A stretch of 48,547 nucleotides of DNA. It comes from Microcaldota archaeon (GTDB lineage: Archaea > Micrarchaeota > Micrarchaeia > Micrarchaeales > Micrarchaeaceae). The notes under the pieces are model-generated. The model ran no database searches. It worked only from the letters and a program-made list of their open reading frames with translations, and had not been told where the DNA came from. The stretch is from assembly GCA_028866715.1 (NCBI GenBank), contig JAGWHO010000009.1:1-48547 (forward strand). Direction: 5' to 3'. This document shows positions 41,886 to 43,004 of this stretch, piece after piece. A program made the position numbers and the translations under genes. The first letter of the stretch is position 1; each line of letters opens with the position of its first letter.

Positions 41886-42806
41886 TCAATGCGCTCGCCT
41901 TGAACCTGGCTTTTGCAGCTTCCCAAGATATATCTTGGACTCTTTCAGGTACCTTTTAAAGAACCACTGCACGAATATCCCATCATCATTTCGTTTATTG
42001 GACCTTTCAAGGGCGTTGTAGTAACTGCGCCTATCCGTATATCTGATATCCATCATCGGATAGCCGTTTTTATGCAGTATGAAGTTCATTATAAGCCTGC
42101 CTATTCTCCCGTTCCCATCGCCAAACGGGTGTACGGTTTCGAATTTCAGATGGACAAGGGCTGCAAGCTCTACCGCCTCGGTCTTGTTTTTCTCTTCAGA
42201 ATACCATCTAAAGACCTCTCTGATGTATGGTTCTACTGCGTGGTATGACGGTGAGGTGAAGTCGCTCCCTGATATGAAGACGTCGTAGTCCCTAAGCCTC
42301 CCGGCCATGCCCGGCTTTGTGCCGCTGAACAGCTCTTTGTGCCATTTAAGGATCAAATCCAGGGACAGTTCGCCTCCGTAGTCCATCATTCCATAGAATA
42401 CGTCCCTGTGAGCCTCTGCCTCTTTTATGTCCCTTACTGGCCGGTTCTTTGGGCTAAGGCCCATTTCCAAAAGGGCTGCGGTATCCTTAAGCGAAAGCCT
42501 TGAACCCTCTATCCTGTTCGTGTCGTATGTGAACCTGATGATGAACGCCTCCAGATTTCTCTTCCTCGCACTAGGGGGCGCCCTGTGCATCTGCCTCCGG
42601 TATTCCGCTCTGATATCCTCAAACAGCTTGAACCATTTTTCATTGTATATCTGAAGGAGAAACTCTCTCTTTAGTTTTTCGAGGTTATCGGGCAGCGTTG
42701 CGCCAAGGTACAGTTCCTTGTATCTTTCCCTGCCGTCTGCCTTGTACGTGTGGCTTAGATAGTAGTAGGTATTTCCCTTTATCTTCCTCTTCTTAACGGT
42801 AACCAT
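41886..42806 (-). CDS. Fic-domain protein (AMPylase-type)
   Basis: 306 aa. The catalytic Fic loop is HPFGDGNGR at 226-234, matching HxFx(D/E)GNGRxxR. The His is the base for transferring AMP from ATP to a target hydroxyl. TNRIEG at 96-101 matches the inhibitory [ST]xxxE[GN] helix, here located N-terminal of the core, so the enzyme is auto-inhibited like class II Fic proteins. Residues 1-50 (KIKGNTYYYLSHTYKADG) are a strand-rich extension. Class II Fic proteins act as toxin-like or signalling enzymes. A TTTATATA box at 42829-42836 (centre at -26.5) makes a leaderless start at 42806, and it lies inside a doubled operator. Confidence 0.92.
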   Translation of the reverse strand: MVTVKKRKIKGNTYYYLSHTYKADGRERYKELYLGATLPDNLEKLKREFLLQIYNEKWFKLFEDIRAEYRRQMHRAPPSARKRNLEAFIIRFTYDTNRIEGSRLSLKDTAALLEMGLSPKNRPVRDIKEAEAHRDVFYGMMDYGGELSLDLILKWHKELFSGTKPGMAGRLRDYDVFISGSDFTSPSYHAVEPYIREVFRWYSEEKNKTEAVELAALVHLKFETVHPFGDGNGRIGRLIMNFILHKNGYPMMDIRYTDRRSYYNALERSNKRNDDGIFVQWFFKRYLKESKIYLGKLQKPGSRRAH

Positions 42807-42814
42807 ATATAGAA

Positions 42815-42932
42815 GTTACACCTACAAATATATAAATATTTGTATTATAATAATATTTAGGTGTAACTATCTCTGCAAAGTTACACCTATTTTTATTATA
42901 TTTATAATTTTATATTTATATGCAGGTGTAAA
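42815..42932 (-). promoter_or_regulatory. Fic promoter with doubled inverted-repeat operator
   Basis: Four copies of a 10-bp motif lie in an AT-rich stretch: GTTACACCTA (42815-42824), TAGGTGTAAC (42858-42867), GTTACACCTA (42880-42889) and the weaker CAGGTGTAAA (42923-42932). Starts are 43, 22 and 43 bp apart, giving two inverted pairs with identical 33-bp spacers. The first pair brackets the TATA box (42829-42836, minus strand) of the Fic gene. A repressor acting on Fic is inferred. The rest of 42933-43004 is GC-richer and shows no gene. Confidence 0.75.
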
Positions 42933-43004
42933 TTTCCGGTACTGGCGGCACGGTGCGCAGGCTTTCTCTAAGTGCTTTGGTACTTCCTGCCAGCGTGGCG
43001 GTTA

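Follow-up and report, generated by a model that had tools for sequence, protein, structure and literature searches.

A fic gene in the 48,547-nucleotide stretch of Microcaldota archaeon DNA analysed here (contig JAGWHO010000009.1, positions 1 to 48,547; hereafter the window) is preceded by a 118-bp array of short repeats (42815-42932), and the locus raises the question of which protein reads these repeats and to what effect. The original prediction had seen in them a duplicated binding module and had named two candidate regulators, a separate antitoxin and Fic itself. Together, our results lead us to propose that the four motifs probably form a doubled operator to which Fic itself binds through an N-terminal β-sheet, thereby repressing fic. 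In more than 100 archaeal relatives the letters of the operator change in step with this sheet, which strongly suggests an enzyme that reads its own operator and shuts off its own gene. Archaeal Fic proteins have, to our knowledge, hardly been studied, and a literature search covering few subscription journals found no earlier description of archaeal Fic self-operators.

Results

The array occupies the intergenic DNA 5' of fic and contains the following elements.

42815-42826, minus strand: half-site H1, TGTAGGTGTAAC on this strand, between the TATA box and the fic start codon; same place (-20) in A-subfamily relatives
42829-42836, minus strand: TATA box of the fic promoter, TTTATATA on this strand, flanked by H1 and H2; between the half-sites in relatives too
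42858-42867, plus strand: half-site H2, inverted partner of H1, 43 bp upstream
42880-42889, minus strand: half-site H3, first half-site of the second, upstream module
42923-42932, plus strand: half-site H4, degenerate, with two mismatches; inverted partner of H3 at 43 bp

Exact copies of GTTACACCTA are found at 42815-42824 (+), 42858-42867 (-) and 42880-42889 (+). Four copies of a 10-bp motif had been claimed; three are exact, and the fourth, at 42923-42932 (-), reads TTTACACCTG and has two mismatches to GTTACACCTA. The start-to-start steps of 43, 22 and 43 bp and the 33-bp spacer within each of the two pairs agree with the earlier description, as does the bracketing of the TATA box by the proximal pair. 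The TATA box is centred 26-27 bp 5' of the fic ATG (42806), which makes leaderless transcription of fic plausible. A search for the motif throughout the genome, suggested with the prediction, located the exact 10-mer at these three places only in the whole 878-kb assembly. Judging from the relatives, the DNA belongs to Micrarchaeota-like DPANN archaea.

Taken by itself, the array is only moderately unlikely to have arisen by chance. The longest perfect inverted repeat of the intergenic region is 11 bp, a length reached by 1 of 500 dinucleotide shuffles. An exact 10-mer was present in at least three copies within the 118 bp in 18 of 2000 shuffles, the figure to which an explanation by chance repeats in AT-rich DNA could appeal; because shuffles of such AT-rich DNA match it, the copy count taken alone carries only modest weight. 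What convinces is the comparison with relatives, for which we surveyed 205 archaeal Fic loci (four subfamilies, three phylum-level samples). Shortly before the start codon of these loci, the TATA box is flanked by two nearly identical half-sites in inverted or direct orientation. Perfect 9-nt pairs were observed in 99 of the 205 loci against 1.1 expected, and pairs with at most one mismatch in 167 against 18.9 expected, although the loci are related and thus not independent trials. At the variable positions 4-8 the agreement of a half-site with its own partner was 0.81-0.96, compared with 0.29-0.59 for half-sites of other loci. The conserved place, the covarying arms and the excess of perfect pairs refute chance, to which we assign a negligible probability.

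The operator is conserved in design, not in letters. Subfamily A has inverted half-sites at about 40 bp, and close relatives of the window locus carry TTACACCT, TACCCCTACA, TACCCTTACA, TACCACTACA or others, with the matching arm 40-43 bp apart around the TATA box. The geometry is about 30 bp with four half-sites in subfamily B, direct repeats at 31-32 bp in subfamily C, and inverted half-sites at 26 bp, again four in number, in subfamily D. The design recurs, with half-sites that differ again (for example TGTGACGT and TGTGGACAATA), in relatives from two more phylum-level samples. In every subfamily the proximal half-site keeps its place between the TATA box and the start codon, while half-site letters, spacing and orientation track the Fic subfamily rather than the genome. 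Absence of the motif upstream of related fic genes had been named as a point that would count against the prediction; the literal sequence is indeed limited to the closest relatives (TTACACCT is the half-site of L010 and L011), but the architecture is family-wide.

The proposed duplication of the binding module is likewise seen in relatives. Subfamilies B and D as a rule have four half-sites, as do several A-subfamily relatives. A second upstream module with spacing like that of the first (39-41 bp) is present in the window, L012, L013, L015 and L040, is weaker in L014 and is reduced to one half-site in L010. The step between the modules is 26-27 bp; in L013 and L015 it is longer by about two helical turns (47 bp), a difference that would fit two modules interacting on one face of the DNA.

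Inverted repeats with AT-rich spacers might also form RNA or DNA hairpins or a terminator. However, subfamily C and several others use direct repeats and therefore cannot pair, an Rfam scan of the window returned only a tRNA and no RNA family at the array, and the sites precede the presumed start and so would not be transcribed. Thus we consider hairpins or a terminator highly improbable.

The distribution of the operator associates it with Fic. No gene family recurred beside fic in more than 2 of the 34 A-subfamily loci (open reading frames of at least 60 aa; smaller genes not excluded). The adjacent antitoxin of a type II toxin-antitoxin module was accordingly not found in these loci, and a neighbour antitoxin was rejected as the reader. 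Paralogues within one genome have different operators, each matching its own Fic subfamily (G000, G003, G090, G103, G143 and others), and G103 encodes several Fic paralogues, each with its own operator. The second Fic of the window's own genome (L084, G000:C21:71635-72654; 312 aa, motif HPFLDGNKR) has an operator that differs from that of the window and is perfectly doubled, with TTAGGTAGACA..TGTCTACCTAA occurring twice; the four exact copies of TTAGGTAGAC at this operator are the sole copies in the genome. Furthermore, a pattern search with one version of the dyad in 301 genomes of the phylum gave 26 sites, compared with 0 for a reversed-pattern control. Among these sites, 21 lie directly 5' of fic, one lies at a contig end and four lie elsewhere.

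The bases of the operator covary with residues of the Fic N-terminus, in the following segments of the window protein.

42693-42806, minus strand: N-terminal three-stranded β-sheet, residues 1-38, proposed DNA-binding domain (AlphaFold; covariation with the operator)
42714-42728, minus strand: codons 27-31 in strand β3; residues 27, 29 and 31 covary with half-site bases 4, 5 and 7

Half-sites were numbered by the scheme TGTnnnn and residues on strand β3, where 27, 29 and 31 alternate on one face. When operator difference was compared with protein difference and controlled for the Fic core, the correlation peaked at residues 21-42 (partial r 0.30 and 0.25) and was at most 0.17 elsewhere; an earlier covariation test restricted to the A subfamily did not reach significance (partial r 0.13, p 0.11), and the signal came with the larger set. 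An aromatic residue at position 27 was accompanied by G4 in 22 of 22 cases and other residues by A4 in 112 of 124. T29 was always found with A5 (19/19), whereas K29 was found with A5 once in 87 cases and with another base in 86. E31 went with G7 (65/73) and R31 with C7 (48/51).

These pairs were also examined on a tree of the Fic core only, in which same-branch changes were counted and averaged over random parsimony tie-breaks for 288 columns. Residue 29 and base 5 ranked first of the 288 columns (mean p about 1e-7), significant after correction for about 2000 tests. Residue 27 and base 4 ranked third, and residue 31 and base 7 first to third, the latter pair having rank 17 with one parsimony resolution and rank 1-3 with averaged tie-breaks. 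No such link was seen between residue 29 and flanking bases outside the half-site. Additionally, for base 5 the next N-terminal columns fell far below residue 29, a gap that speaks against simple co-transfer of the gene's 5' part and its promoter.

The covariation also bears on whether an unlinked dedicated regulator, an antitoxin or a transcription factor, binds the operator in place of Fic. For Doc and other Fic toxins of bacteria, control usually lies with a partner protein, self-control of the CccR type being the exception, and binding by Fic is here something that we infer. An unlinked regulator would nevertheless require several matched regulators per genome, since each paralogue has a different operator; moreover, operator and Fic co-occur in other phyla, no neighbour is conserved in the 34 A-subfamily loci, and the bases follow Fic residues. 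We therefore regard such a regulator as unlikely. Between the two options of the original prediction, Fic self-regulation is the better supported, and the separate antitoxin or regulator is disfavoured.

A prediction rule that was frozen before the held-out loci were fetched gave correct bases in 24 of 29, 28 of 29 and 22 of 23 cases, a fair but narrow check, with held-out loci mostly from one subclade. Such a test matters because the covarying columns had been picked on the same data. This selection and the narrowness of the check weigh against binding by Fic itself, as do several further observations. On the tree only the pair of residue 29 and base 5 survives correction for all tests; the support for the pairs at 27 and 31 consists of rank and contingency tables and is sensitive to half-site registration. 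Two bases of the window's own half-site, TGTAGGTGTAAC, do not follow the rule, G5 standing where Y29 predicts A5 and T7 where E31 predicts G7, and its clade (L009-L011) has unusual residues at position 27 (E, K, K). The reversed half-sites of the D subfamily lie outside the rule, and the Halobacteriota-type Fic proteins (L198-L210), without a TGT half-site, do not fit. Pfam models gave no match over the N-terminus, and a Foldseek search of the PDB with the isolated N-terminal domain gave no significant hit by fold (best E 0.32). Finally, four dyads were found away from fic starts, in L119, L132 and L138 and as a second site in L137.

L119:1501-1548, L132:1501-1549, L138:1501-1548 and L137:1501-1548: dyads with intact half-sites and no fic start behind them

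Such dyads may mark places where fic has been lost, or they may serve as additional binding sites. In L137 (G047) fic has one dyad 5' of it and, immediately past its stop codon, a second, similar dyad that points the same way. Dyads on both sides of a gene, and three dyads without fic, are what would be expected if the dyad served not as an operator but for recombination or insertion of a mobile fic cassette, and in L025, L026 and L028 fic lies between two tRNA-Asp genes. These tRNA genes are about 1.1 kb apart, an arrangement that resembles a cassette inserted at, or duplicated with, a tRNA. In contrast, the proximal half-site is fixed between TATA box and start codon in every subfamily, the half-site covaries with Fic residues and not with a recombinase, and no recombinase recurs beside fic in the 34 A-subfamily loci. 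A mobile cassette is thus very unlikely to account for the dyads, and an operator read by Fic remains our preferred explanation.

The domain proposed to read the operator is predicted by AlphaFold to comprise antiparallel strands at residues 3-9, 12-23 and 26-35 (predicted local distance difference test score about 75-92), followed by a long helix and then the Fic core. The model thus has the three-stranded antiparallel sheet and helix of β-sheet DNA-binding domains, and such an N-terminal sheet is common to the Fic proteins of this archaeal family. The Tn916 integrase N-terminus and AP2/ERF are β-sheet DNA-binding domains in which a three-stranded antiparallel sheet is likewise followed by a helix, and here too alternating strand residues are the proposed base readers; with no significant sequence or fold match to the archaeal domain, this likeness is a lead only. 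An N-terminal sequence profile found no match in the PDB and, in 60 genomes, retrieved essentially Fic proteins only, besides weak matches to two kinds of DNA-binding protein, an IS1634 transposase and Lrp/AsnC-type regulators. L116 and L117 encode proteins of about 460-480 aa with a similar N-terminal β-sheet, followed by an AsnC-type helix-turn-helix (HTH) and a possible Lrp-like domain.

The remainder of the window protein is a Fic enzyme.

41886-42806, minus strand: Fic protein, 306 aa, PF02661 (E 9e-22), class II-like core, structure like FICD
42096-42131, minus strand: catalytic Fic motif HPFGDGNGRIGR, residues 226-237, from the sequence
42504-42521, minus strand: inhibitory-helix motif TNRIEG, residues 96-101, of the class II form [S/T]xxxE[G/N], from the sequence

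The protein has both the Fic motif HxFx[D/E]GN[G/K]R and the Fic fold of the Fic/Doc (Fido) family. In AlphaFold models of nine relatives the closest PDB structures were those of FICD (template modelling score about 0.7), and T96, E100 and G101 were invariant in an alignment of 9 sequences. Neither a Pfam scan nor the AlphaFold model revealed a C-terminal domain beyond the Fic core.

Discussion

The observed operator architecture, its match with the Fic subfamily, the lack of a conserved neighbour and the residue-base covariation are consistent with a mechanism in which Fic would bind physically, dimerise and repress rather than activate. The half-site TGTnnnn would be contacted by strand β3, along which residues 27, 29 and 31 alternate. 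One Fic dimer, or two as a pair on the doubled operator, would span the proximal half-site, placed between TATA box and start, and the distal half-site immediately 5' of the TATA box. Bound Fic could then block TBP/TFB or RNA polymerase, such that the archaeal initiation complex would not assemble and fic would be repressed. Repression is probably the likelier outcome because a dimer over both half-sites would block the initiation complex.

A Fic protein that represses its own gene is known from Yersinia pseudotuberculosis, where CccR binds a pair of inverted 10-bp boxes at its promoter, separated by an unusually long spacer of 26 bp (PMC9755527). The window fic shares the spaced inverted half-sites in its own promoter; binding and repression may be shared as well, for which the covariation is only indirect evidence. 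In contrast to CccR, which has a C-terminal HTH, the window Fic has no HTH and its candidate domain is the N-terminal β-sheet; the archaeal TATA box sits within a 33-bp spacer, and the operator occurs in duplicate and has diversified within the family. The archaeal Fic family would thus work like CccR without being of the CccR type. The class II Fic protein CbFic2 of Coxiella burnetii binds DNA, and DNA binding is reported to switch the dimer to deAMPylation (PMC10628234). The window Fic likewise has a class II-like core and is predicted to bind DNA, whereas CbFic2 has a C-terminal winged HTH and no specific operator is shown in that report. Phd-Doc and other type II toxin-antitoxin modules would share with the window locus an autoregulated promoter of a Fic/Doc-family gene; there the antitoxin binds DNA, whereas here no partner gene is conserved and the inhibitory motif lies inside Fic.

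If Fic does read its own operator, the whole archaeal Fic family gains a specific control, promoter self-recognition by an N-terminal domain that has gone unrecognised, and the coexistence of many Fic paralogues without cross-talk would be explained. More than 100 natural domain-operator pairs would then be at hand for deriving and testing a code of DNA recognition by a β-strand. Tentatively, and with some doubt, we extend this to the hypothesis that a widespread family of solitary archaeal AMP-transferases doubles as transcription factors through a near-colinear β-strand code (27/29/31 : 4/5/7), that this code allows the paralogues of one cell to diverge into mutually insulated, self-controlled units, and that operator binding may gate AMPylation.

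In the window itself, a G+C-rich stretch (42940-43004), with no open reading frame, tRNA or Rfam match, lies between the operator and the 3' end of a GNAT gene. Elsewhere, Fic proteins with a divergent N-terminus (KLEIKxIKGxKYLYI; L198-L210, L328-L331) often have promoters with GGTTAACC-like palindromes and not TGT half-sites, and no half-site was found at three other Fic loci without the N-terminal domain. Among Fic loci encoding winged-HTH-like C-termini (L097-L112), several promoters have, 5' of the TATA box, the inverted repeat TGATTAAA..TTTAATC(A). Because of these repeats they are no clean negative control for loci that lack the N-terminal domain, and the repeat suggests that a further Fic subfamily controls itself through a different DNA-binding domain.
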